40,302 nt of DNA, taken from contig JAFGVM010000071.1 of NCBI GenBank assembly GCA_016937995.1, positions 1-40,302 of the forward strand, in the 5' to 3' direction. This document shows positions 5,655 through 33,289 of this stretch, in pieces (within the stretch, counting starts at the first letter, position 1; each line of letters begins with the position of its first letter). The position numbers and the translations under genes were made by a program. This DNA comes from Candidatus Delongbacteria bacterium (GTDB lineage Bacteria > UBA4055). The notes below the pieces were generated by a model that was not told the DNA's origin, did not search any database, and worked only from the letters and a program-made list of their open reading frames with translations.

Positions 5655-5685
5655 AAAAAAACTCCGATCTATCGGAGTTTTTTTA
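5655..5685. terminator. Bidirectional terminator between the tRNA and the methyltransferase gene
   Basis: ACTCCGAT (5661-5668) pairs with ATCGGAGT (5671-5678), and the flanking A/T runs extend the stem. T-runs follow on both strands. It can end the tRNA transcript on the plus strand and the long degP-psd-pssA-rib operon on the minus strand. It overlaps the last codon and stop of the methyltransferase gene. Confidence 0.88.
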
Positions 5686-6558
5686 TTTCGTTAATTTGAG
5701 TACTACAAAAACTCTGTTTTGCATACCGAAAAGATCAGCTAAAAACCATAATAACGGTATTGAAAATCGTACAGCATATTTATTAAAAGTGCTTAAATAA
5801 GAGGTCTTTCCGATAATCTCTCTTATCGGTGAATTTATTTTTTCATTTAATTCTATCTCAAAACCGAGATCTTTCAAAATTTCAAATGTTTTCGAACTGA
5901 ACTTATGAATATGACCGTCTGGATTTACTCCATAGTAATTCAGTCTGTGACCGGTCAATTTATCTCCAAGCCTGGCAAATTTATGAATCAGACTGTTCTG
6001 AGTAGGAGTTTCAATTATCAATGAGCCTTCATTTCTTAGAATTCTCTTACACTCCAAAAGAAATTCTTTAGGATGAGGAAGATGTTCTATAAGATTAAAT
6101 GCAAAAATCATATCGAATGAGTTTTGATCATAAAAATTATCCAATGCTCCAAAACGTGATCTTATTTTTCTTTTGTTACAATATTCTACTGCATTATGGT
6201 TAATATCACAACCTTCAGCCTGTAATCCGAATTCCTCGCAAACGTCAAGAAAAAATCCCAATCCCGATCCCACATCGAGTATTTTCTTAATCTTGATATC
6301 AGGAATTAATTTTAGAATACCTGCAAGCTGCTTTCTAAATCTTTCCTTCTGAAAACTTTCCTCTTTAAGATAAACATCCTCTGCCCAGTATTCTGAATCA
6401 ATTGCTTTATCAAAATTTTGAGTGGTAAGTGGATCTGACCATAAAAGTTCACATTTAGGACACTGCAATATTTTGTATCTTGAACCTTTACCGTAAAAAA
6501 CACCTGTAAAACCTTCTCCACAGATGTCACAGTATTTCTGATTTTGATCATTGATCAT
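5683..6558 (-). CDS. Class I SAM-dependent methyltransferase with N-terminal zinc ribbon
   Basis: This 291-residue protein has a zinc-ribbon-like start with two CxxC pairs (Cys10/Cys13 and Cys33/Cys36), then a Rossmann-type methyltransferase domain. Motif I is LDVGSGLGFF (94-103), an acidic CDIN follows beta-strand 2, and the motif-IV-like FDMIFAFNLIEHLPHP is typical of Methyltransf_11/12/23 proteins. The substrate is unknown; this class often acts on sugars, lipids or cofactors during envelope glycan synthesis. The ATG lies inside a heptamer repeat (6544-6564), 3 bases after the ribBA stop, with only a weak ribosome site, so translation probably depends on ribBA. It is the last gene of the operon. 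Confidence 0.88.
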   Translation of the reverse strand: MINDQNQKYCDICGEGFTGVFYGKGSRYKILQCPKCELLWSDPLTTQNFDKAIDSEYWAEDVYLKEESFQKERFRKQLAGILKLIPDIKIKKILDVGSGLGFFLDVCEEFGLQAEGCDINHNAVEYCNKRKIRSRFGALDNFYDQNSFDMIFAFNLIEHLPHPKEFLLECKRILRNEGSLIIETPTQNSLIHKFARLGDKLTGHRLNYYGVNPDGHIHKFSSKTFEILKDLGFEIELNEKINSPIREIIGKTSYLSTFNKYAVRFSIPLLWFLADLFGMQNRVFVVLKLTK

Positions 6559-6564
6559 TGATTA
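6544..6564. repeat. Heptamer tandem array at the methyltransferase start (unit TTGATCA)
   Basis: Three consecutive 7-base units, TTGATCA, TTGATCA and TTGATTA, cover the ribBA-methyltransferase junction and encode the first residues of the methyltransferase (MIND). The unit differs from those of the other arrays in this window but the period is the same. Confidence 0.7.
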
Positions 6565-7764
6565 TTTCTTACCCAGTATCATGTGTCCCATCTTGTCACG
6601 TTTTGTTTTAAGATAGTGTTCATTCTCGACCTTACAGCCTACCTCAATAGGCACTCTTTCAACATTTTTCAAACCATAACCCTGTAAACCTACTAGTTTT
6701 TTAGGATTATTGGTCATAAGCCTTATGTTCTTAATTCCCAGATCAACAAGGATCTGAGCACCTATACCGTAATCCCTAAGATCTGCAGGAAAACCGAGTT
6801 CTTCGTTAGCTTCCACAGTATCAAGTCCATTGTCCTGTAAATGATATGCTTTTATCTTTGCTCTGAGGCCTATTCCTCTGCCTTCCTGACGCATATAAAC
6901 AAGAACTCCACGTCCTTCTTTGGATATCATTTCCAATGCTGCATGAAGCTGGTCACCACAGTCACATCTGCCGCTACCGAAAACATCTCCGGTAAGACAT
7001 TCTGAATGTACCCTGACCAGAACAGGTTCTTCAGTCTTAACATCTCCTTTGACCAAAGCTATATGCTCCTGATCATCTATTTTTGACAAATAGTATTTTA
7101 TCTTGAATTCTCCATACATAGTAGGAAGATCTGCAACAGTTTCACACTCAACGAGTTTTTCCCTTTGCCTGCGGTACTCAATAAGGTCCTGAATTGTCGC
7201 AAGTTTGATACCGTGTTTTTTTGCAAAGACCTTAAGTTCAGGCAATCGTGCCATTGAACCGTCTTCGTTCATTATCTCACAGATTACACCTGCAGGTTTT
7301 AATCCAGCCATTCTGGACAGGTCTACCGCTGCCTCTGTGTGGCCTGATCTTACGAGCACTCCTCCGTTCCTTGCGATCAAAGGGAACATATGACCCGGTT
7401 TTGCAAAATCAGATGGTTTTGAATTATCATCTATTAACGCATTGACTGATTTATACCTGTCGAAAGCAGAAATACCTGTTGTTGTACCGTGTATATAATC
7501 AACTGATATTGTAAAATTAGTATGCTTGGCATCAGTATTGTTATTTGTCATCAGTTCTAATTCTTTTTGCTTAGCGAGATCTTCAGTCACAGGCATACAA
7601 ATAAGACCTCTTGCATATTTGGTCATAAAATTTATAGTTTCAGGTGTAGCTAATTCTGCCGCCATTACCAGATCACCCTCGTTCTCTCTGTTTTCATCAT
7701 CAAGAAGTATGATCATTTTACCATGTTTTATGTCTTCAACTATGTCTTCAATTTTACTAAGCAT
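6562..7764 (-). CDS. ribBA: Bifunctional DHBP synthase / GTP cyclohydrolase II
   Basis: This 400-residue fusion catalyses two early steps of riboflavin synthesis. Residues 1-200 are RibB, which converts ribulose 5-phosphate to 3,4-dihydroxy-2-butanone 4-phosphate; it has the acidic [10 protein letters not shown] loop (22-31) and the RSGHTEA segment near 139-145. Residues 205-400 are RibA, which opens GTP; it has the zinc cysteines Cys256, Cys267 and Cys269 in SECLTGD...GRCDCGD and the RQEGRGIGL segment. Both halves look complete and the length is normal for RibBA. GGGAT lies before the ATG. It follows ribE by 89 bases, and an intergenic heptamer repeat lies in the gap. I see no FMN riboswitch ahead of either gene. 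Confidence 0.97.
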
Positions 7765-7835
7765 TATTTATCCCTAATGTTTTTATTTTTTATACTTCAG
7801 ACCCTTTAATAAATTCAGGTGAACAATATTCTACC

Positions 7836-7850
7836 TGGTCACTGGTCACT
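7836..7850. repeat. Short heptamer repeat between ribE and ribBA (unit GGTCACT)
   Basis: Two 7-base units form TGGTCACTGGTCACT just past the ribE stop codon. On the other strand they read AGTGACC twice. The unit is the same class as in the arrays at 16171, 16551 and 33266. Confidence 0.65.
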
Positions 7851-7853
7851 ATC

Positions 7854-8486
7854 TCAATACCCGAGTTCCGTTAAACGATCCATCGTTAATCCAGAGTCTT
7901 TATTTTTTAACATACTTTCTATATACCTTCCGATGATATCAGTTTCAATATTTAATTCAGTCCCGGTCTTCCAGTATTGAGCGGTAGTTCTTTTTAATGT
8001 GTGAGGGATTATAGCAAGTCTAAAATAATTATCATTCACTTCCGCAACCGTCAAACTTATACCGTCAATGCATACTGAACCTTTATGAACAATATATTTC
8101 TTCAGTTCTCCTGGATAATTTATCGTAAATTCTGTTCCAGTAATATTGTTGACTATCTTGGATATTTTTCCCTTCGCATCAACATGTCCCTGAACAATAT
8201 GCCCACCAAGTCTGTCTGAAACTCTCATCGCAGGTTCAAGATTTACTTTTTCCATCAATTTCAATTTATTCAGGGTTGTAAGGTTCAAACTTTCTTTCAC
8301 TGCCTGAACAGTAAAAGATCCTTTATCAACCGCAACAACTGTTAAACATACACCATTGACAGCTATTGAATCATCGATAGCAGCATCCTCGGTTACGATA
8401 GTGCTTCCTACAGTGATTTCTGCACCGTCACCGATGTTTTTGATGTTTTTGATATTCCCTATTTCTTTGATAAGACCAGTAAACAT
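7854..8486 (-). CDS. ribE: Riboflavin synthase, alpha chain
   Basis: The protein catalyses dismutation of two 6,7-dimethyl-8-ribityllumazine molecules to riboflavin. It has 210 residues starting at MFTGLI, the near-invariant N-terminus of the family. The frame is open to 8507, but MFTGLI at 8486 is the better start and lies 1 base after the pssA stop. The two homologous lumazine-binding barrels are visible: the first with VNGVCLTV and RLGGHIVQGHVD, the second with IDGISLTVAEV and IIPHTLKRTT. The length fits the family. No ribH (lumazine synthase) or ribD is in the window, so the pathway must be completed elsewhere. Some genomes call this gene ribC. Confidence 0.96.
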   Translation of the reverse strand: MFTGLIKEIGNIKNIKNIGDGAEITVGSTIVTEDAAIDDSIAVNGVCLTVVAVDKGSFTVQAVKESLNLTTLNKLKLMEKVNLEPAMRVSDRLGGHIVQGHVDAKGKISKIVNNITGTEFTINYPGELKKYIVHKGSVCIDGISLTVAEVNDNYFRLAIIPHTLKRTTAQYWKTGTELNIETDIIGRYIESMLKNKDSGLTMDRLTELGY

Positions 8487-8487
8487 A

Positions 8488-9252
8488 TTATTCCGTTTCG
8501 TTCTCAATTTCTTTATCTTCAGATTTCATTTTTTCGATAATACTGCCCACTACTCCAGAGAGAACAAAAAATAACATCAGCGGGAATAGCAATGACATTT
8601 TAAACTTTACTACTACGAATATGAGCAGAATAACACTCAGTATCTTAAGGTTTCTTTTTATAAAATTCTCTTTTCTTTTGAACATTATAGGAAAACCCTG
8701 ATATTTTATCCGGGATATCATAAGATATGATACAATGATAGATGTTGCTGTCAACCATTTAAAGTGCTTGAGAGAGCCGTAAGTCTCAAATTCAAAAAGA
8801 ACGAAAGAGATTATTGTCATTGCTGCCGCTGGTGACGGTAACCCTGAGAAGAATTTTTTGGAATGTCCGACCAATTCAGTATTGAATCTTGCAAGTCGTA
8901 TTCCAGTGAACATCAAAGGCAGAAAGGAAAAGAATATTATCAGATGCTTTAGATCTTCCAGTCCTGGATATTTGTCAATATATACATTCTTGTACAGACT
9001 GTACATGAGTATAGAAGGAGCCATTCCGAAAGTAATTATATCAGCAAGTGAATCGAATTCAACTCCAAAATCAGATGTACTTTTTACAAGTCTTGCAACT
9101 TTGCCGTCCAATGCATCGCATACACCTCCGAGAAGAACAAAATAAGCACCCCATATGTAATTCCCTTCTATAGAGGATAATACAGACCAGAAACCGAAGA
9201 ACATATTCCCTATCGTCAGAGAATTTGGAAAGATTGACATCCTTCTACCCAT
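8488..9252 (-). CDS. pssA: CDP-diacylglycerol-serine O-phosphatidyltransferase
   Basis: This membrane enzyme joins CDP-diacylglycerol and L-serine to make phosphatidylserine. The 254-residue protein carries the complete CDP-alcohol phosphatidyltransferase signature between residues 49 and 71 (DGKVAR, then G63, D67 and D71). About six to seven hydrophobic segments surround it, and a charged tail (KMKSEDKEIENETE) ends the protein. An AGGAG site sits 6 bases before the ATG. It lies 8 bases downstream of psd, whose product decarboxylates the PssA product, so the two form the standard route to phosphatidylethanolamine. The N-terminal MGRRMSIFPNSLT is typical of the Gram-positive/FCB type of PssA, not the E. 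coli type. Confidence 0.95.
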   Translation of the reverse strand: MGRRMSIFPNSLTIGNMFFGFWSVLSSIEGNYIWGAYFVLLGGVCDALDGKVARLVKSTSDFGVEFDSLADIITFGMAPSILMYSLYKNVYIDKYPGLEDLKHLIIFFSFLPLMFTGIRLARFNTELVGHSKKFFSGLPSPAAAMTIISFVLFEFETYGSLKHFKWLTATSIIVSYLMISRIKYQGFPIMFKRKENFIKRNLKILSVILLIFVVVKFKMSLLFPLMLFFVLSGVVGSIIEKMKSEDKEIENETE

Positions 9253-12998: not shown

Positions 12999-14996
12999 AT
13001 GATCAATGAATTCCAGAAAGAGATCATGGAAGGAATACCGAAAGTACTTCCTGAATTGAAACAATATGATCCTAATATCAACCATGCACCAAAAAGAAAA
13101 GATATTTTATCCTTGGCTGAGAAAAAATTAGCCATAAAAAATGCTTTGAGATATTTTGACAAGGAACATCATTCAGTTCTTGCTAAAGAATTTGCTGAAG
13201 AATTAAAACTATATGGTCGTATTTACATGTACCGTTTCAGACCAAGTTACAAAATAACAGCCAGATCTATAGAAGAATTCCCGCATAAAAGTAAACAGGC
13301 TGCTGCTATAATGCTTATGATATCGAACAATCTTGATCATGCAGTAGCTCAGCATCCTCACGAACTTATTACTTACGGCGGAAATGGAGCTGTTTTTCAA
13401 AACTGGGCTCAGTATAGATTAACTATGAAATATCTTTCTGAAATGACAGATAAGCAGACGCTGGTCATGTATTCTGGTCATCCAATGGGTCTCTTTCCTT
13501 CTCATAAAGATGCACCGAGAGTTGTTGTAACAAATGGAATGGTCATCCCGAATTACTCAAAACCTGATGACTGGGAAAAATTCAATGCACTTGGTGTTTC
13601 TCAGTATGGTCAAATGACAGCTGGTTCATTCATGTATATCGGACCTCAGGGAATAGTTCACGGTACAACAATAACTGTACTTAATGCAGGCAGAAAGATA
13701 GGCAAGGATGGTCTTGGCGGTAAATTATTCGTTACTTCCGGTCTTGGTGGAATGTCTGGTGCTCAGGCCAAAGCAGCTGTCATAGCCGGAGCTATCGGAG
13801 TAATTGCAGAGATAAACCCTAAAGCTGTCCATACGAGACATTCTCAGGGATGGGTCGATGAGGTTTATGAAGATCTTGATGAACTGTTAGAAAGGATCAG
13901 AAAAGCGAAAGCGAACAAAGAAGCGGTTTCTTTAGCATATCAGGGAAATATCGTTGATCTATGGGAAATATTCGTTGAAAAAAATATTTTTGTTGAGATA
14001 GGTTCAGACCAGACTTCGCTTCATAATCCCTGGGCAGGTGGTTATTATCCTGTTGGTCAAAGCTATGAAGATTCAGTTATAATGATGGCTGAAAAACCTG
14101 AGTTGTTCAAAGAAAAAGTTCAGGCATCTCTAAGAAGACACGTTTCAGCTGTAAATGCTTTGACTGCTAAAGGTATGTATTTCTTTGATTATGGCAATGC
14201 TTTCCTTCTTGAATCAAGCAGAGCCGGTGCTGATATAATGAAAGAAGATGGAAATTTTAAATACCCTTCCTATGTGCAGGATATTATGGGGCCAATGTGC
14301 TTTGATTTCGGTTTTGGTCCTTTCAGATGGGTCTGTACTTCATCTGATCCTGAAGATCTGTTGAAAAGTGACAAGATAGCAATAGAAGTTCTCGAAGAAA
14401 TGGCAAAAACATCCCCCGCTGAGATCACTCAGCAGATGCAGGATAATATCAAATGGATAAAAGGTGCTCAGGAGAACAAGCTTGTTGTTGGTTCACAGGC
14501 AAGGATCCTTTATGCTGATGCAGAAGGTAGAATAAAGATCGCCAAGGCTTTTAACAAAGCTATAAAAGAAGGATATATTACTGCTCCTATCGTACTTGGC
14601 AGAGATCACCATGATGTTTCAGGAACTGATTCTCCTTACAGAGAAACTTCCAATATATATGACGGTTCGTCTTTTACAGCAGATATGGCTATTCAGAACG
14701 TTATCGGAGATTCATTCAGGGGTGCTACCTGGGTCTCTATCCACAACGGTGGAGGTGTCGGCTGGGGTGAAGTTATTAATGGAGGTTTTGGAATGCTGCT
14801 TGATGGTACTCCTCAGTCAGACATAAGGCTTAAGTCAATGCTATTCTGGGATGTGAACAACGGTATCAGCAGAAGAAGCTGGGCCAGAAATGAAGGGGCA
14901 GTTTTCGCTATAAAAAGAGCAATGGAAGCTAATCCTGATCTTAAAGTTACCCTCCCGAACATTGCAGATGATGAATTGATCGATGGTTTGTTTTAA
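12999..14996 (+). CDS. hutU: Urocanate hydratase (long form)
   Basis: This 665-residue enzyme converts urocanate to imidazolone propionate, the second step of histidine breakdown, with a tightly bound NAD+. Family hallmarks are visible: YGGNGAVFQNWAQYRLTM, MYSGHPMGLFPSHKDAPRVVVTNGM, a glycine-rich NAD-binding stretch GKLFVTSGLGGMSGAQAKA, and the cysteine-containing GPFRWVCTSSDPEDL. The length is about 100 residues above the common 550-residue bacterial enzyme and fits the longer form found in some Firmicutes, Bacteroidetes and animals. I place the start at 12999 because AGGAGAG lies just before it; an ATG 45 bases upstream has no ribosome site. No hutH, hutI or hutG is nearby. The stop overlaps the start of the patB-like gene. 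Confidence 0.96.
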   Translation: MINEFQKEIMEGIPKVLPELKQYDPNINHAPKRKDILSLAEKKLAIKNALRYFDKEHHSVLAKEFAEELKLYGRIYMYRFRPSYKITARSIEEFPHKSKQAAAIMLMISNNLDHAVAQHPHELITYGGNGAVFQNWAQYRLTMKYLSEMTDKQTLVMYSGHPMGLFPSHKDAPRVVVTNGMVIPNYSKPDDWEKFNALGVSQYGQMTAGSFMYIGPQGIVHGTTITVLNAGRKIGKDGLGGKLFVTSGLGGMSGAQAKAAVIAGAIGVIAEINPKAVHTRHSQGWVDEVYEDLDELLERIRKAKANKEAVSLAYQGNIVDLWEIFVEKNIFVEIGSDQTSLHNPWAGGYYPVGQSYEDSVIMMAEKPELFKEKVQASLRRHVSAVNALTAKGMYFFDYGNAFLLESSRAGADIMKEDGNFKYPSYVQDIMGPMCFDFGFGPFRWVCTSSDPEDLLKSDKIAIEVLEEMAKTSPAEITQQMQDNIKWIKGAQENKLVVGSQARILYADAEGRIKIAKAFNKAIKEGYITAPIVLGRDHHDVSGTDSPYRETSNIYDGSSFTADMAIQNVIGDSFRGATWVSIHNGGGVGWGEVINGGFGMLLDGTPQSDIRLKSMLFWDVNNGISRRSWARNEGAVFAIKRAMEANPDLKVTLPNIADDELIDGLF

Positions 14997-16171
14997 TGAA
15001 AAATAAATGTAATTTTGATAAAGGGATCGACCGTAGAAACACAAATTGTATCAAATGGGATATCAACCATTTGATCTTCGGAGAAAAAGATGTTCTTCCG
15101 ATGTGGGTCGCAGATATGGACTTTGAAGCCCCTCCAAAAGTTATAGAAGCTTTGATCGACAGAGCTAAACATGGTGCCTACGGATATACACTTCATCCCA
15201 GGAGTCTTAAAGAAGCTATCACTGACTGGGAATTCAGACGACACAACTTGAAGATCCAAAGCGACTGGATATCATTTTCTCCCGGGATCGTTCCTGCTGT
15301 TAATTTCTTCGTGGACTGTTTTACAAAAGAAGGTGATGGAATTATAATTCAGACACCTGTCTATTATCCGTTCATATATGCCTGTGACAGGAACAACAGA
15401 AAACTTGTAAATAATCAGCTTATCCAAACTAAAAATGGGTATGAGATCAACTTTGATCAGTTAGAGGATCAATTATCTGATCCGGATACTAAAATGATGA
15501 TAATTTCAAGCCCTCACAATCCTGTTGGAAAAGTTTTCACTGCAGATGAACTTACTAAGATGGCTGAATTCTGTGCTGATAACGGTGTTATCCTTATTTC
15601 AGACGAGATACATCAGGATATTATTTTCAGTGGAAATGAACATATATGTACTTCCTCGCTGTCAGAGAAAATTGCTCAGAATACGATAACCTGTGTAGCT
15701 CCAAGTAAAACATTTAATCTTGCAGGTCTCGGTTTTTCTGCATTGATCATTCCTGATGAGGAAAAAAGGAATAAATTTCAGAAATACATGGATGCAAAAG
15801 GTATTCATGGATCGAACCTTTTTGGCATAATTGCCGGAGAAGCTGCTTACAGACACGGAAATGACTGGCTGAACGAGCTTCTGATCTACCTTGAAGGTAA
15901 TATTGATTATATGGAGAATTTTTTCAAAGAACATCTACCTAAGATAAAAATGCAACGGCCTCAGTCAACTTATCTTGCCTGGCTGAATTTCAGGGAGTAT
16001 GGTTATTCTCAGAAAGAACTTGTCGATAAAATGGTCAAAGAAGCAAAGCTTGGTCTAAACGATGGTTCAGCCTTCGGAGCCGGTGGAGAAGGTTTTATGA
16101 GACTTAACTTTGCCTGCCCACGGTCAACAATAGAAGAAGCTATGAAGAGAATGAAAACTGTGTTTTCATAG
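14996..16171 (+). CDS. PatB/MalY-type PLP-dependent C-S beta-lyase
   Basis: This 391-residue protein is a fold-type I PLP enzyme of the MalY/PatB class, which removes sulfur from cystathionine or cysteine-like substrates to give pyruvate, ammonia and a thiol. The N-terminal FDKGIDRRNTNCIKWD, PMWVADMDFEAPP and the PLP lysine Lys238 in APSKTFNLAG are class marks, as are SSPHNPVGKVF and ISDEIHQD. The length is typical. The start ATG overlaps the hutU stop (TAATG), so the two genes are translationally coupled. This is an unusual pairing: a histidine-breakdown enzyme with a C-S lyase. The true substrate may differ from cystathionine; an aminotransferase activity is possible. Confidence 0.92.
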   Translation: MKNKCNFDKGIDRRNTNCIKWDINHLIFGEKDVLPMWVADMDFEAPPKVIEALIDRAKHGAYGYTLHPRSLKEAITDWEFRRHNLKIQSDWISFSPGIVPAVNFFVDCFTKEGDGIIIQTPVYYPFIYACDRNNRKLVNNQLIQTKNGYEINFDQLEDQLSDPDTKMMIISSPHNPVGKVFTADELTKMAEFCADNGVILISDEIHQDIIFSGNEHICTSSLSEKIAQNTITCVAPSKTFNLAGLGFSALIIPDEEKRNKFQKYMDAKGIHGSNLFGIIAGEAAYRHGNDWLNELLIYLEGNIDYMENFFKEHLPKIKMQRPQSTYLAWLNFREYGYSQKELVDKMVKEAKLGLNDGSAFGAGGEGFMRLNFACPRSTIEEAMKRMKTVFS

Positions 16172-16203
16172 TGGTCAGTGGACAGTGATCAGTGGTCAGT
16201 ACT
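16171..16203. repeat. Heptamer tandem array after the patB-like gene (unit GTGGTCA)
   Basis: Four contiguous 7-base units, GTGGTCA, GTGGACA, GTGATCA and GTGGTCA, start at the last base of the patB stop codon and end in a partial unit. No hairpin is formed, so it is not a terminator. Confidence 0.8.
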
Positions 16204-16206
16204 TAA

Positions 16207-16434
16207 CTACTCGTCATCCGGGCGCATTGTGTATCCTTTTTTCGCCATCTTGATAGCTTCCATCAATTCATTTATTATCTTTATACATTTATCATTTTTA
16301 TAGAAACCACAAGTAAAATCACCTATGTACAAAGTACTGTGACCTGGAATATTGGGATGATTTTTATAACTGACAATATCCCCACCTTTCAATAAATAAA
16401 TACTTTCACCTCTACTGTTCATGATCGCAAACAT
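16207..16434 (-). CDS. Small protein of unknown function (75 aa)
   Basis: I do not recognise this 75-residue protein. It starts MFAIMNSRGESIYLLKGG, continues with a strand-rich segment containing two cysteines (CGFYKNDKC, residues 42-50), and ends in a helix and basic region (NELMEAIKMAKKGYTMRPDDE). It lacks a signal peptide or membrane segment. It is probably a real gene: AAGGAGGT lies at ideal spacing before the ATG, and a good TTGCAA-N17-TAAAAT promoter stands 46 bases upstream, after the terminator of the M18 peptidase gene. It is therefore its own transcription unit. It converges with the patB-like gene across a heptamer array. Confidence 0.72.
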   Translation of the reverse strand: MFAIMNSRGESIYLLKGGDIVSYKNHPNIPGHSTLYIGDFTCGFYKNDKCIKIINELMEAIKMAKKGYTMRPDDE

Positions 16435-16550: not shown

Positions 16551-16582
16551 ACTGACCGGTGTTCACTGTCCACTGGTCACTG
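16551..16582. repeat. Heptamer tandem array after the M18 peptidase gene (unit TCACTGG class)
   Basis: Units TCACTGT, CCACTGG and TCACTGG, with degraded units on the left (CTGACCGGTG), form a 7-base periodic run. On the minus strand they read as CAGTGAC-like units, the same class as the array at 16171 but in the opposite orientation. The array lies between the M18 stop codon and its terminator, so it is transcribed. Confidence 0.7.
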
Positions 16583-16583
16583 G

Positions 16584-16613
16584 AAAGGATTTTTAGTACT
16601 CTAAAAATCCTTT
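16584..16613. repeat. Perfect 13-bp inverted repeat across the M18 stop codon
   Basis: AAAGGATTTTTAG (16584-16596) and CTAAAAATCCTTT (16601-16613) are exact inverted copies separated by 4 bases. The right arm encodes the last residues of the peptidase, and the left arm contains the stop codon and the bases after it. No T-run follows on the minus strand, so it is not a standard terminator, but the mRNA could fold here and affect 3' end stability. Confidence 0.75.
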
Positions 16614-17876
16614 CATAGCTTCGATCATGTACATATGATCATCTACTCCGCAAGTCTCTCTGGTGGAATGCATTGCCCACAAAGCATTTCCAACATCAAC
16701 AGTCCTGATGCCGATATTTGTTGCTATCATTGAACCGATCGTTCCTCCGCCTCTTACATCAGACCTGTTCACAAATTTCTGATATGGTATCTTTTTCTTC
16801 TTGCATATCATCTCAAATACTGAAGATGATTCTGCAGTTGTTGCATATCTTGTATTCGCATTGATCTTTATCACCGGACCTTTGTTTATATAAACTGTGT
16901 TCTTATCATCGAACTTTCCACCGTAGTTAGGATGAAAAGCATGTGCTCCGTCAGCGCTCATGTAATATGATACTGAAATCGCTCTGAAATAATCCTCTCT
17001 ACTGCCTGAAAGCCTTTCAAGAATATCTGCTGTCAATGATGAATTCCCGCCGTTTGTGGTCGAAGAACCCACTTCCTCATTGTCATATAATGCAATGATC
17101 TGGGTACTGTCTGATGTTTTAGCATCAAGAATTGCTTTAATAGACGCATGTACCATAGATTTATTATCAATATTCCTGTTACTTATGAACTCATCGTTCA
17201 TACCTGATATCACCCCTTTCTGAACAGGATAGATCTCCATATCATAATTTACGATTTCAGAACCTTTTACTTTTAACTTTTTTGCGATCTGTTCTTTCAT
17301 CCATTCATCGGTCAGTTTTTCTTCACTAAGACCGATAACAGGGACTAAATGATCCTGCGGGTTTATATTGTAAGCTTTATTAACATCACTGTTATAATGG
17401 ATCGCAAGTTGCGGAATATTGAAGATCAAATTGTCCAGTTCAACAAGTTTTATCTCATAACCTGATCCCTTTTTGATAACCACTCTTCCAGCAAGAGAAA
17501 GGTCCTTATCCATCCAGCTGGCAAATATCGGCCCTCCGTAGATCTCTGTTGCAAGTTGAACACAACCTCCTTTTGTGTAAAGAGAGTTGGGTTTAAGTTT
17601 GATCGCCGGTGAATCAGTATGTGATCCGATCATTCTAAAACCTGCAACATTAGGTTTCTTCTTCCCTATTATACCTGCTATCAAAGAAGTATTATGTCTG
17701 ACAATGTAAAATTTATCACCTGCTTTTAGATTCCACTTTTGAGATTCTTCAAGTTTTTTATATCCTGCCTTCTTTAGAATCTTTTCTGATTCAACCACAC
17801 AGTGCGAACTTGTTGGTGAATTATCGATGAAACTATTCAGATCTTTTGCGATCTCCAGCATCTCTTTATTATTCAT
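16593..17876 (-). CDS. apeB: M18-family aminopeptidase
   Basis: This 427-residue cytosolic metallopeptidase belongs to family M18 (aspartyl aminopeptidase/ApeB), which removes N-terminal, often acidic, residues using two metal ions. Family marks are FIDNSPTSSHCV near the start, the metal-binding GSHTDSP (His86), YGGPIFASWMDKDLSLAGRV, the catalytic/metal DNEEVGS, and a late ANTRYATTAES to MHSTRETCG stretch. The length fits the family. AGGAAGAG precedes the ATG, 14 bases after the M14 peptidase gene, so the two are probably one unit: a secreted carboxypeptidase and a cytosolic aminopeptidase for peptide use. A hairpin spans the stop codon and a terminator lies downstream. Confidence 0.95.
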   Translation of the reverse strand: MNNKEMLEIAKDLNSFIDNSPTSSHCVVESEKILKKAGYKKLEESQKWNLKAGDKFYIVRHNTSLIAGIIGKKKPNVAGFRMIGSHTDSPAIKLKPNSLYTKGGCVQLATEIYGGPIFASWMDKDLSLAGRVVIKKGSGYEIKLVELDNLIFNIPQLAIHYNSDVNKAYNINPQDHLVPVIGLSEEKLTDEWMKEQIAKKLKVKGSEIVNYDMEIYPVQKGVISGMNDEFISNRNIDNKSMVHASIKAILDAKTSDSTQIIALYDNEEVGSSTTNGGNSSLTADILERLSGSREDYFRAISVSYYMSADGAHAFHPNYGGKFDDKNTVYINKGPVIKINANTRYATTAESSSVFEMICKKKKIPYQKFVNRSDVRGGGTIGSMIATNIGIRTVDVGNALWAMHSTRETCGVDDHMYMIEAMKGFLEY

Positions 17877-17890
17877 TACTCTTCCTATTA

Positions 17891-19552
17891 TTATTTAATT
17901 AAGACCATTTTATTTGCCTGAACTATTCCATCGTCCGTTCTAAGCACACCGTAGTAAATTCCACTTGATAATTTATCTCCGTTAAATTCAAATGAGAACT
18001 TTCCGGCTGTGAATTTATTGTCAACAACTTTCTCGACCAGTTTTCCTGCCTGATCATATATATTTATGCTTATATTTTGATGTTTATCATTGATGAAAGA
18101 AATTGTTGTTGTCGGATTGAACGGATTCGGATAATTTTGTTCTAATTGTAAATTGTCCATTGTAAATTGTTCATTGTCTATCCCTGTATTTTTAACAAGC
18201 TGGACATTTACTTCAGTTGCTTCTTTAAAAACCCCTGTATCATCAGTAACTACGATATTATCTATTGTCTGAGGAAAGTACCCCGGACAGGAAACGGTCA
18301 TTGTATATGTTCCCGGTATCAGTATTCTGTAATAATCCCCTTTATCAGGATCTGTGTAATAATCTTTGTCAATACCTGCTATCTGGATAGTTGCTGCAAC
18401 AGGTACACCTGACACAGAATCAGTGACTACCCCGTAGATACCTTTATGAGCAGCTGATAAGTACCAGAACATTGAATTTCTATTCTCTTGCCAATAAACC
18501 GGCATTGAGCTGTAAGAAGGCCATTTTGTACCGGATATTTCCAGTGTCATGTCCATATCATTATGATATCTGTAGTTCCAGTCCTGCATTCCGCCATCTA
18601 TTGAATACCAGTCACATCCATTGGTTACTCCATCCGTAAATGAAGAACTGCCGAACAATCTTGGATTCCTGCTTGCATAACCATAAGCCAGCCAGTAAGC
18701 ATGAGCATCATCAGGAGCTGCAGCATAGGCACCATTTGCTACACCAAAATCCTTATCAAATACAAAATTGGCAACTTCAGCTCCACCGTGAAAGTTTGTC
18801 GATAGAATAAAGTTGTGTGCTTTTGTCCAGCTGATCATTGCCTGGTTCTCAGGAATTGTGCTGACTAATATCGTATCAGGTTCATAATAAGTTCCTTCAG
18901 GGAAATTTCTGTTTAAATCAATATAGTTAGCATTATATCTCTGTCCAAGTTCATTTCCATCTGGATTCATTAATGGCATTATGTATAGCTCAGTGTTGTT
19001 TACTATAAACTGCATTGTATCATTATCTGCGTAATATCCTTGAAGAATATCCTCGATCATATACATTTCCATTTCCATTCCGGTAACTTCATCACCGTGC
19101 ATTGTCGAAACGAACTTTACTTCTGGTTCTGCTTCTTCTATGTCAAGGCTGTCTGTGATCTTAAGTACCCATAATTCTCTTCCCTGTACAGTCGTTCCTA
19201 TCTGTATTCTTTGACATATCTCAGGATATCTATTCTGCCAAGCAAGCATTGAATCTCCAATAGACTGGTTGTCGTAGAATTGAGTTGCATCTTTAGGGAT
19301 TTGCAATGGTGTCCAGCTAACAGTGTAACCTGCTTCAGTCAACATGGAAAATTCTTCTTCTGTTACATATACCTTAATAGATTCAGGTAATCCTTTTGCA
19401 GTGAAACTTGTTCGGTCTATATCAATTTTGTTGTCCTGAAGAAATTTTATATCATCAAGACCTGATATCTTTACTACTGCATATTCGTGAAGTTTTACGA
19501 AAGCTGAAAGCATTGTTAGAGATATTAGTATTATTAGTATCGTTCTCTTCAT
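17891..19552 (-). CDS. Secreted M14 zinc carboxypeptidase with C-terminal sorting domain
   Basis: This 553-residue protein has a signal peptide (about 1-18) and a short propeptide-like region. The M14 domain carries zinc ligands His152 and Glu155 (MHGDEVTG) and His255 (NFHGGAE), and the catalytic Glu338 (LEISGT). A carboxypeptidase-regulatory beta-sandwich follows (about 370-450, GVVTDSVSGVPVAATI). The C-terminal 90 residues begin NYPNPFNPTTTISF and form the FlgD-like/type IX-like sorting domain, so the enzyme is probably exported across the outer membrane or held on the surface. The linker before that domain is encoded by a heptamer array (18143-18177). It is the first gene of the pair with the M18 peptidase. 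Confidence 0.93.
   Translation of the reverse strand: MKRTILIILISLTMLSAFVKLHEYAVVKISGLDDIKFLQDNKIDIDRTSFTAKGLPESIKVYVTEEEFSMLTEAGYTVSWTPLQIPKDATQFYDNQSIGDSMLAWQNRYPEICQRIQIGTTVQGRELWVLKITDSLDIEEAEPEVKFVSTMHGDEVTGMEMEMYMIEDILQGYYADNDTMQFIVNNTELYIMPLMNPDGNELGQRYNANYIDLNRNFPEGTYYEPDTILVSTIPENQAMISWTKAHNFILSTNFHGGAEVANFVFDKDFGVANGAYAAAPDDAHAYWLAYGYASRNPRLFGSSSFTDGVTNGCDWYSIDGGMQDWNYRYHNDMDMTLEISGTKWPSYSSMPVYWQENRNSMFWYLSAAHKGIYGVVTDSVSGVPVAATIQIAGIDKDYYTDPDKGDYYRILIPGTYTMTVSCPGYFPQTIDNIVVTDDTGVFKEATEVNVQLVKNTGIDNEQFTMDNLQLEQNYPNPFNPTTTISFINDKHQNISINIYDQAGKLVEKVVDNKFTAGKFSFEFNGDKLSSGIYYGVLRTDDGIVQANKMVLIK
18143..18177. repeat. In-frame heptamer array inside the M14 peptidase gene (unit ACAATTT class)
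   Basis: Five contiguous 7-base units read on the coding (minus) strand as ACAATGA, ACAATTT, ACAATGG, ACAATTT and ACAATTA. They are translated as the linker NEQFTMDNLQL directly before the sorting domain. Five units are 35 bases, not a multiple of three, so the frame was kept by the flanking bases. Confidence 0.8.
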
Positions 19553-19640
19553 AGTTTTTCCTTTTCTCCACAGGTTAAAACCTGCGGTTAATTAAGTTAT
19601 ATACCGCTGAGATAGGCTAACTAACTGTCCACTCCGAAAG

Positions 19641-20419: not shown

Positions 20420-20440
20420 TTATAGTTTATAGTTATAATT
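20420..20440. repeat. Heptamer array at the deacetylase-fold gene stop (unit TTATAGT)
   Basis: Two exact 7-base units TTATAGT (20420-20426, 20427-20433) and a related third unit (TATAATT) overlap the stop codon at 20433-20435. The unit is unlike that of the TGGTCAG-type arrays but the period and the gene-end position are the same. Confidence 0.6.
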
Positions 20441-21746
20441 TCAATGCTTCTTTAAATGCTTTAAAAACAAATTCAGGAGATGAATTGTGCAGAAGAAGGA
20501 TCAGATCACCACCATAAGCATCAATGATATGCTTATATTTTTTAATTTCATCGATGATCTCGGTCTTATTCATTTTAATGTGAGAATTAAGTGTTGCATC
20601 CATTACGATCAAGGGATGCTCAATAATATCGTAAGGTTTTCTTTCTTTAAAATTCCATGGTCTGAACGGATAACTGGTACCACATCTGAAACCTGCATAC
20701 CTTGAATAACCGAGAGAATACTCATTCTTAAAACCAGCTTTCTGAAGAAGATCAAATGAAATTTCCACATCGAATCTGAGGAAGTGTGCTCTGACAGAAT
20801 CTACTTTGATATTCAGTTTCTTTTCAAGAAGTTCTTTCTCAGATAAAATATTATCAAGTGATGACATGGAATCATAACCGTAATGCAGGCCGATCTCTCC
20901 CCCGTTTTCCAGAATTAATTCAGCTGTTTTAGAAAAATCTTGATCAGCGAACCAACCTGAGTCATAGATACTCTTTTCAGCTACCGGAATGAAGAACACA
21001 GGTTTTTCTGTAGTGAATTCAGATATTTGTATCAATTCTTCAAAAGTATTGTAGGGATCCTTTGAATTAATGAGGATCTTCATACAGAAGTCTCTGAAGT
21101 TCTGATAGAACATTTTCAGAGAATGTCTCTTTAAAATATCACCTACCAGTTTTTTAAAAATATTAAAATTTGAAAATTTCCTATAATCGTCAATATCTGA
21201 AGTCAGAGTAATCTTATTTTCATGGTCTTTCATTTCAACGTCTGGATCAAGTTCGATGATAAATGACCGGAGCAGAATAGCATATTCATTCACTATCGGT
21301 CTACCTATGAAATTTTCCTTCACAGCCAAACTTATTTTACCGGGAAATCTTCCGTGTTCATCTTTTTCAGGAACAGCAATTTCCTCCCAGCGGGTTATCA
21401 TAAAGAACACTGATGAAATAATATCAATTCCACAATGGATATGATCTTCTGATATGCTTATTCTTTCATCCCCGAACATAATCGGTAATTCTGCGATCTC
21501 TGCACAGTTCAGCATCTTTAATTTTACCGGGATATTTTCAGGTTTAATGTAATCAATTTCAACACGGGCAAAAAAATCATCAGATAAAGTAAGTATCTTG
21601 CCATTGGGAAATTCAAATATATAGTTATTGTATTCTCCGGTAAGGATTAGATACTCAATGCCGAGTATTTCCTTTAAAACAAAATTAATCACATAACTCT
21701 TCTCGGGTACAAATTTATCAGATATTTTAACGATCAGAGGTTTCAT
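20433..21746 (-). CDS. Polysaccharide-deacetylase-fold protein (DUF7033-like N-terminus)
   Basis: This 437-residue protein has an N-terminal beta-rich region (about 1-150) like the domain annotated as DUF7033, and a NodB-like barrel. The barrel shows LTSDIDDY (181-188), which is the metal-binding aspartate motif, a later GEIGLHYGYDS (284-293) and RAHFLRFD (near 317-324). The usual HxxxH pair is not in its standard form, so it may use a variant site or lack deacetylase activity. It probably acts on a cell-envelope glycan. It starts 3 bases after the lptG stop, so it is cotranscribed with lptF and lptG. This fits a role in lipopolysaccharide or other envelope sugars; the substrate is unknown. 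Confidence 0.85.
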   Translation of the reverse strand: MKPLIVKISDKFVPEKSYVINFVLKEILGIEYLILTGEYNNYIFEFPNGKILTLSDDFFARVEIDYIKPENIPVKLKMLNCAEIAELPIMFGDERISISEDHIHCGIDIISSVFFMITRWEEIAVPEKDEHGRFPGKISLAVKENFIGRPIVNEYAILLRSFIIELDPDVEMKDHENKITLTSDIDDYRKFSNFNIFKKLVGDILKRHSLKMFYQNFRDFCMKILINSKDPYNTFEELIQISEFTTEKPVFFIPVAEKSIYDSGWFADQDFSKTAELILENGGEIGLHYGYDSMSSLDNILSEKELLEKKLNIKVDSVRAHFLRFDVEISFDLLQKAGFKNEYSLGYSRYAGFRCGTSYPFRPWNFKERKPYDIIEHPLIVMDATLNSHIKMNKTEIIDEIKKYKHIIDAYGGDLILLLHNSSPEFVFKAFKEALKL

Positions 21747-22817: not shown

Positions 22818-22821
22818 TTGT

Positions 22822-22863
22822 AGGGTTTAGAGTTTAAAGTTTTAAATCCACAACTTACAACCG
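22822..22863. repeat. Heptamer-periodic array between lptF and lptG (units AGRGTTT and ACAACTT)
   Basis: AGGGTTT, AGAGTTT and AAAGTTT are contiguous, then after one degraded unit ACAACTT and ACAACCG follow. The whole stretch keeps a 7-base step. It fills nearly all of the 50-base gap between the two permease genes and lies just ahead of the lptG start codon. Confidence 0.65.
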
Positions 22864-31983: not shown

Positions 31984-32032
31984 AAATTAACATTAAATAT
32001 TGAGAAATACAATCAAATCAAAGGAGAAGAAC

Positions 32033-33259
32033 ATGACTAAAAGAACTATCGTAGCAATGCCGGGTGACGGTATCGGTAGAGTTGTCCTTGACGAAGCTAT
32101 CAGAGTTTTATCTGCAGCCGGTTTCGAGGCTGATTACGTTGAAGGAGACATTGGGTGGGAATTCTGGTGTACAGAAGGTAATCCCCTTCCACAGAGAACT
32201 ATAGACCTTCTTGAAAAGCACAAAGTTGCTCTGTTTGGAGCTATTACTTCAAAACCTAAAGATGATGCATTCAATGAACTGGCACCTGAACTTCAGGCTA
32301 AAGGTCTTGTTTATTCAAGCCCTATTGTAGGTCTAAGACAGCATTTTGGCCTTGATATTTGCTTAAGACCATGTAAATCTTACATCGGTAATCCTCTTAA
32401 CTTTATCAGAAGAGGTCAGGGTAATGCTATAGAAGAACCTGCAGTTGATGCACAGATATTCCGTCAGAACACTGAAGGCCTTTACGGTGGTGTTGAATGG
32501 TCTAATCCTCCTAAGCAGGTACATGACGCTCTAATGACACACCCTAAGTTCGTTAAAAACTTTGGATCGACTCCTGTTGAAGAACTTTCAGTATCTACCA
32601 GAATTTTCACAAAGAAAGCTACTGAAAGAATTCTTAGAGCAGCTTTTGAGCATGCTAAGAAATACGGTTATAAATCAGTTACTGTTTGTGAGAAACCAAA
32701 TGTGATCAGAGAAACTTCCGGAATGATGTATAAAATGGCTCAGCAGATCCAAAAAGCTGATTACCCTAACATAGAACTTTGGAATACTAATATTGACGCA
32801 CAGATGATGTGGTTAACTAAGAATCCTGAGAACTATGGAGTTATCGTGGCAGGAAATATGTTCGGTGATATCGTTTCTGACGGTTTTGCAGGACTTATCG
32901 GTGGACTTGGATTCGCTTGTAGTGCACAGTATAATCCTGAAACAGGTGTTGCTGTATTTGAGCCTACTCACGGATCAGCTCCAAAGTACGCTGATTATGA
33001 AACTTCAATTGTAAATCCAATTGCAATGATCGAATCAGCATGTATGATGCTTGATTATATTGATGAGCAGGAATGTGCTAAGAAGATCAGAAAAGCGGTA
33101 GCTGACGTTATTTCTGAAGGTAAAGTAAGAACTTATGATATGATGAAGATGACCGGCAGAGCGGATGTTTGTGAAAAAGGTGCTGCTTCAACTCAGGAAA
33201 TGGCACAGGCTATTATTGATAAAATGCAGGGTGGAAAATGCTGCTGTGGATGTAAGTAG
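32033..33259 (+). CDS. Isocitrate/isopropylmalate dehydrogenase family enzyme with Cys-rich tail
   Basis: This 408-residue oxidative decarboxylase starts MTKRTIVAMPGDGIG. Its NTEGLYGGVEW loop and ICLRP arginines fit isocitrate rather than isopropylmalate dehydrogenases. The general-acid lysine (VCEKPNV), catalytic tyrosine (EGLYGG) and metal aspartates (NTNIDAQ, GDIVSDG) are present. HGSAPKYA with Lys-Tyr and a later TYD suggest NADP use. The residue matching Asn115 of E. coli Icd appears to be Ile, so the substrate is not certain; homoisocitrate-like acids are possible. The protein ends in KCCCGCK, an unusual four-cysteine tail. AAGGAGAAG precedes the ATG; an upstream in-frame start at about 32000 has no such site. 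It is cotranscribed with the XRE-cupin regulator. Confidence 0.9.
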   Translation: MTKRTIVAMPGDGIGRVVLDEAIRVLSAAGFEADYVEGDIGWEFWCTEGNPLPQRTIDLLEKHKVALFGAITSKPKDDAFNELAPELQAKGLVYSSPIVGLRQHFGLDICLRPCKSYIGNPLNFIRRGQGNAIEEPAVDAQIFRQNTEGLYGGVEWSNPPKQVHDALMTHPKFVKNFGSTPVEELSVSTRIFTKKATERILRAAFEHAKKYGYKSVTVCEKPNVIRETSGMMYKMAQQIQKADYPNIELWNTNIDAQMMWLTKNPENYGVIVAGNMFGDIVSDGFAGLIGGLGFACSAQYNPETGVAVFEPTHGSAPKYADYETSIVNPIAMIESACMMLDYIDEQECAKKIRKAVADVISEGKVRTYDMMKMTGRADVCEKGAASTQEMAQAIIDKMQGGKCCCGCK

Positions 33260-33265
33260 ATGTCC

Positions 33266-33289
33266 GTGGACTGTGGTCAGTGGTCAGTT
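33266..33289. repeat. Heptamer tandem array after the dehydrogenase gene (unit GTGGTCA)
   Basis: GTGGACT, GTGGTCA, GTGGTCA and a partial unit follow the stop codon by 6 bases and run into the terminator. The unit and orientation relative to the upstream gene match the array at 16171. Confidence 0.8.

Follow-up and report, generated by a model that had tools for sequence, protein, structure and literature searches.

The window, a 40,302-nt stretch that is contig C17 of the Candidatus Delongbacteria genome G000 (2.75 Mb in 99 contigs), carries tandem arrays of 7-nt units that are part of a genome-wide set. The arrays share a single period and a degenerate unit consensus, lie mostly at or shortly after stop codons, have a preferred orientation with an excess of stop triplets in the sense strand, and turn over between congeners. 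The most parsimonious reading is that they belong to a known class, the heptameric long simple sequence repeats.

Period-7 arrays in the window

Eight sites in the window had been described in the first-pass annotation as strict arrays of 7-nt units. All eight do carry period-7 sequence, although "strict" is too strong for sites of such unequal quality: four are strong, two consist of about two copies and two are weak, with only 16 of 25 lag-7 matches at 16551–16582. The arrays, and an ORF located between two of them, are the following:

6544–6566, no strand assigned: strong array of the near-palindromic unit TTGATCA (TRF, 3.3 copies, 93%; 13/14 lag-7 matches), overlapping the stop codon of a ribBA-type gene (6562–7764, minus) and the start of a methyltransferase gene (5683–6558, minus; both Pfam)
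7835–7850, minus: short exact array, sense unit AGTGACC, 2.3 copies, singly near chance; 3 nt past the stop of a lumazine-binding (riboflavin synthase-like) gene (7854–8507, minus; Pfam)
16170–16200, plus: strong array AGTGGTC AGTGGAC AGTGATC AGTGGTC AGT (20/26 lag-7 matches), the first two bases of which are the final two of the TAG stop of an aminotransferase gene (14996–16171)
16207–16434, minus: putative coding ORF of 75 aa, between the arrays at 16170–16200 and 16560–16583
16560–16583, minus: best segment of 16551–16582, a weak array convergent with and inverted relative to that at 16170–16200; 3' of an M18 aminopeptidase gene (16593–17876, minus)
18144–18177, minus: strong array (21/28 lag-7 matches) within the CDS of a secreted M14 carboxypeptidase (17891–19552; Pfam)
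20420–20434, no strand assigned: exact TTATAGT, 2.1 copies, singly near chance, at the stop codon of a gene at 20433–21746 (minus)
22821–22842, no strand assigned: best segment of 22822–22863, a weak, degenerate array (AGGGTTT/AGAGTTT/AAAGTTT) between two LptF/LptG-type permease genes (Pfam)
33266–33288, plus: strong array GTGGACT GTGGTCA GTGGTCA GT (14/17 lag-7 matches), 6 nt past the stop of an Iso_dh-family gene (32000–33259; Pfam)

For comparison we used GH31, a Candidatus Delongbacteria MAG in which the M18 aminopeptidase of the window is 88% identical. The array within the carboxypeptidase gene lies in the linker preceding the Por secretion tail, and the linker of GH31 is period-7-like at the same place, with different bases. 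The 75-aa ORF is missing at the corresponding GH31 site and had no match in the 40 other genomes searched; it could be an orphan gene, or a chance ORF within an expanded gap. Searching the window against Rfam returned a tRNA only.

Genome-wide excess of period 7

Tandem segments were scanned at every lag in 1.12 Mb of G000 and 0.85 Mb of GH31. A simple longest-ORF rule defined the ORFs, and it places start codons and small genes only approximately. In the window, 11 period-7 segments reached a score of at least 8, against 1.2 expected under a second-order Markov null, while the other periods from 5 to 12 gave between 0 and 8 segments, the 8 being those of the codon-related period 12. A simple autocorrelation by lag revealed nothing but codon periodicity in the window; run and segment statistics were needed.

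Taken alone the window is suggestive, and the genome scan is decisive. At a score of at least 14, the 1.12 Mb of G000 contained 27 arrays of period 7, compared with 0–2 for each of the periods 3–6 and 8–13 and 5 for period 14, and among intergenic segments scoring at least 10 there were 46 of period 7 and 0–6 of the periods 4–6 and 8–13. The result was repeated in GH31, where 15 arrays had period 7 and any other period gave at most 3. Seven, the fixed period claimed from the window, is thus the sole period between 3 and 13 with a clear excess. The density is about 70 arrays per Mb genome-wide. Four arrays (on C12, C66, C46 and C4), two of them longer than 80 bp, occur in the first 100 nt of a contig, against 0.2 expected; this indicates that the assembly breaks at long arrays and that their true lengths are underestimated.

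A shared unit consensus

To compare the units, the profiles of 60 G000 arrays were aligned over strand and phase, with units whose positions had been permuted internally as the null. The consensus approximates A-R-T-K-R-D-V, or roughly A [G/A/T] T [G/T] [A/G] [T/G/A] A/V, and holds 5.48 bits of information versus 3.67 +/- 0.08 for the permuted units; AGTGATA, AGTGGTC, AGTTAGA, AGTCAGA, AATTGAC, AGTTGTG and AGTTATG are among its members. The units do change from site to site, as had been claimed, but they are variants of one degenerate heptamer rather than the unrelated sequences that they were taken for. Among the intergenic segments scoring at least 10, 38 of 46 exceeded the 80th percentile of permuted units, a figure that is not independent, since largely the same arrays went into training the profile. 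Identity between units barely falls with their distance (0.891, 0.884, 0.877), and local homogenisation is therefore not visible in these short arrays.

A four-unit pattern made from the consensus was then compared with its reversed control across 290 genomes, a pattern-based search that leaves out lineages with other units. Matches were obtained in 72 genomes, which are mostly from outside the family, with counts for pattern and control of 145 and 12 in G117, 86 and 2 in G253, and 74 and 6 in G285. The reversed control was the commoner one in several genomes (12 versus 154 in G076), so the consensus is not universal. In G117 and G253, which are from an unrelated family, the AATTGAC/AATGGAC arrays inspected recur between similar flanks, ...TTATAGAGA[array]TTATAAGATAGAACACAAAG... 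Their surroundings differ from those in G000, and with these shared flanks of their own they look like a dispersed repeat that contains an array.

Position and orientation relative to stop codons

Although ORFs make up 92% of the bases of G000, 53 of the 60 arrays (88%) lie outside them. The enrichment at gene borders that had been noticed in the window is borne out, and can be narrowed: the border is mainly the 3' end of a gene, at its stop codon, and the arrays take a preferred orientation there. Lack of a period-7 excess or of border enrichment had been named beforehand as grounds for abandoning the observation, and both excess and enrichment were found in the 1.12 Mb of G000, the excess in GH31 as well.

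Position was evaluated in 70 arrays located in gaps between same-direction genes, pooled from G000 and GH31. The array started before the upstream stop or at most 20 nt past it in 41 of the 70; intergenic bases within 20 nt past a stop amount to 14.6%. Median distances were 7 nt from the upstream stop and 63 nt from the downstream start, and 50 of the 70 arrays were nearer the stop. Several of the first 60 arrays start two bases into the gene overlap, the stop codon being formed by a T and the AR of the array, as at 16170. Where the overlap is deeper, the ORF rule is partly responsible: an array running into a reading frame supplies its stop.

The purine-rich strand was in sense in 37 of the 41 stop-proximal arrays versus 11 of the 29 others. 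When the overlap with genes was trimmed, stop triplets were more numerous in the sense than in the antisense strand in 43 arrays and less numerous in 15 (p = 3e-4), a significant test with a moderate effect; the trend was weaker in arrays more than 20 nt from a stop (16 versus 8). All three frames were closed in sense in 25 of 51 G000 arrays and in antisense in 13, compared with 16.8 +/- 2.5 for permuted units. Since 7 equals 1 modulo 3, successive units put the stop in successive frames, and three stop-bearing units close all three. Purine bias alone was rejected as the cause of the orientation, as arrays far from stops are purine-rich in just 11 of 29 cases, and pyrimidine-rich sense arrays still lean toward stops (10 versus 6). 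Together, these counts indicate that neither purine bias nor stop content alone explains everything.

Turnover between congeners and paralogues

The array was missing in GH31 at 7 of 10 compared sites, including 16170 and 22821 of the window; that at 16560–16583 is also absent there. At C63:26915, G000 has an array where GH31 has overlapping stop and start codons. The orthologous pairs that bear on whole-unit changes of copy number are few: one differs by one unit, one is identical and one was rewritten. At C67:5268 the congeners keep the layout and GH31 has one 7-nt unit fewer, while at C14:7018 the units differ (TAGGGGT, versus AGTGGTC in GH31) and the same hairpin follows. The identical array, of 31 nt (C8:1117–1147 and GH31 L127:8538–8568), is inside a 53-nt identical stretch, although the neighbouring coding sequence differs by about a fifth between the species and the adjacent hairpin also differs. 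Two paralogous gene ends in G000, C36:36420 (AGTGGTC/AGTGATT/AGTGGTT) and C66:15152 (AGTTGTG/AGTTGCG), have arrays that begin with the same TAG. The unit differences at C36/C66 and at C14:7018 are the outcome expected of turnover by expansion and contraction.

Origin of the arrays

Our preferred explanation, to which we give an even chance of being right, is that slippage-made arrays survive in the free space past stop codons, with translation filtering their units and orientation. Replication slippage or unequal exchange would make and rewrite arrays by adding or losing single units of 7 nt, a length that the footprint of the polymerase would favour, as in Mrazek's proposal. Survival would be expected mainly where a 92%-coding genome has free space, which is just past a stop and before the upstream signals of the next gene, and units or orientations with sense-strand stop codons would be those that translation tolerates best. 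We thus infer slippage as the generator, the post-stop position as survivorship and translation as the sieve.

The first-pass annotation had argued that slippage cannot give unrelated units at a fixed period, and knew of no mechanism for such a set. Slippage set by the stretch of about 7 nt that the DNA polymerase contacts was, however, suggested by Mrazek et al. (2007), as cited in PMC4679880 and PMC4692102; the units are related, and homologous sites with different units fit expansion and contraction. Slippage alone does not predict an A-R-T-K-R-D-V consensus shared across many loci. Local homogenisation is likewise not visible in the short arrays, an array identical between species (C8:1117) is odd for neutral, slippage-prone DNA, and arrays can arise together with GTAG hairpins at sites empty in GH31. 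Slippage covers neither the shared consensus nor the single array that is perfectly conserved, which is why we also retain site-specific action or function as alternatives. Loss of mismatch repair was rejected as a cause, since all 13 genomes of the family have MutS-family genes, whether they bear arrays or not.

The joint appearance with hairpins, at C81:58079 and C28:16641, could mean that the arrays are parts of, or travel with, mobile repeats dispersed between genes (REP hairpins of the GTAG type), which a Y1 tyrosine transposase may move, in blocks of array and hairpin that insert after stops and then decay. The site at C63:26915, which has only overlapping codons in GH31, would also suit such insertion, and G000 has one Y1_Tnp gene. 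In its tandem gaps of 60–150 nt, 7 hold both elements, 14 an array only, 7 a REP only and 152 neither (odds ratio 10.9, p = 2e-4); in 10 of 11 cases the REP follows the array. Array matches and clear GTAGGGG hairpins are found in the same five of 13 family genomes, and neither in the other eight; the call for one of the five, G004, is a judgement, as its raw count is not above the control though several of its matches are good hairpins. Yet most arrays have no adjoining REP, and the gaps of 60–150 nt in GH31 show no association (0 with both). G001 has 98 REP matches, compared with 92 in G000, and 5 array matches only, while G004 has 39 array matches, has few REPs and lacks Y1_Tnp. The two species share an identical array at C8:1117 beside REPs that differ, and neither a target-site duplication nor shared array flanks were seen. 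A composite of array and REP was rejected as the whole story on the GH31 gaps and the disagreeing counts of G001 and G004, and we consider the mobile origin unlikely, if worth keeping in view; the pattern speaks for intergenic space that tolerates both, or for their occasional joint insertion, not for one element.

Selection on mRNA 3' ends, with the arrays acting as all-frame stop cassettes or as binding sites for a repeat-reading factor, would account for the start at the stop codon, the orientation (37/41), the sense stop excess and a frame closure above that of permuted units. It would equally suit the conserved consensus, the 31-nt array that the congeners share unchanged, and the array layout that two paralogous operon gaps (C36, C66) retain with different units. 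Nevertheless, survivorship yields the same position bias, only a small minority of genes carry an array, 7 of the 10 compared sites have none in the congener and 8 of 13 family genomes have no match to the consensus pattern. By its title, PMC6764699 moreover reports no eubacterial evidence for selection on fail-safe additional in-frame stops, and we regard such a function as rather improbable. A bolder proposal, and in our opinion a doubtful one, is that a sequence-specific process common to distant bacteria makes or keeps A-R-T-K-R-D-V heptamers at gene 3' ends. The agent would be a transposase or repair enzyme that acts on single strands and copies units of 7 nt, or else an RNA-binding factor taking one heptamer per subunit; if so, the array would be a real regulatory or mobile unit and not slippage debris. 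That the arrays are instead products of chance, composition or assembly, AT-rich short repeats picked by eye, is very hard to credit. Several window sites are weak, and four long arrays are no further than 100 nt from contig starts, the places at which assemblies break, but the 27 arrays against 0–2 for other periods were repeated in the congener, the consensus is far above the permuted null, and unrelated bacterial families carry arrays that fit the same pattern. For the genome as a whole chance is refuted, although the arrays at 20420–20434 and 7835–7850 could singly still be due to it.

Other dispersed repeats

The sole Y1 transposase gene of G000 (PF01797, C56:32618–32959) is a possible RAYT for the REPs of this genome, in which about 90 GTAGGGG hairpin pattern matches were counted. 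Two more dispersed hairpin repeats, AAGTCACACTGAG...GTGTAAGACTTTT and GATTGCCACGGATT...AATCCTCGCAATGACA, are intergenic (e.g., the flanks of C41b:13592 and C81:23230 and a flank of C28:19380). In the window, positions 19562–19614 have about 79% identity to two other places in the sampled sequence and are probably another dispersed intergenic repeat.

Comparison with known heptameric repeats

The exact 7-base preference of bacteria has been a puzzle since at least 2007, with one idea, the polymerase footprint, to explain it. Any mechanism has to satisfy three constraints from the G000 set: the units follow one degenerate consensus, the arrays start at the stop codon, and their sense orientation is fixed. 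With a few dozen loci, models of sequence-blind slippage and of site-specific action can both be put to the test. The set also carries a warning: arrays can supply a gene's stop or apparent start codon, and can end contigs in MAGs.

The kinship to heptameric repeats of other bacteria that had been suspected from the window is confirmed, although some known systems fit poorly. Phase-variable contingency loci have the repeat in the promoter or 5' coding part, where its copy number switches expression, whereas most G000 arrays are at 3' ends. GTAG-tagged REP palindromes (PMC3733652) are intergenic, mostly downstream of genes, and occur in the same gaps of G000; they are hairpins, however, and the arrays are direct repeats without the GC-rich palindrome and GTAG foot of a REP or BIME, with palindromes adjoining a minority of them. 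The GGGAATC and GGGGA(T/C)T repeats of Xanthomonas and Nostoc (PMC4692102) are, like ours, heptameric and intergenic, and vary in length and sequence between relatives, but their units have quadruplex-forming G-runs, which most G000 units do not.

Closer are the TAACTGA direct repeats of Beggiatoaceae, cyanobacteria and Bacteroidetes (MacGregor 2015, PMC4679880), which are also heptameric, short and intergenic, have indels in 7-nt increments between Cyanothece strains (PMC4679880) and in some species are mixed with other heptamers. Read on the other strand, TAACTGA is AGTTATC, which fits the G000 consensus, though three copies of AGTTATC at up to 2 mismatches had no match in G000. The BOGUAY arrays of TAACTGA have one dominant unit and lie just upstream of starts, whereas those of G000 have many units and are mostly after stops (50 of 70 nearer the stop).

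According to the papers that cite Mrazek et al. (2007), PMC4679880 and PMC4692102, heptanucleotides are the most abundant class of long simple sequence repeats in most prokaryotes. As in that class, the G000 arrays have a period-7 excess, a mostly noncoding, intergenic location and a lineage-patchy distribution. What sets them apart from it, as far as those citing papers describe it, is the shared sequence recipe and the placement at stop codons: the units of G000 share a degenerate consensus, and the arrays start at stops and are oriented.
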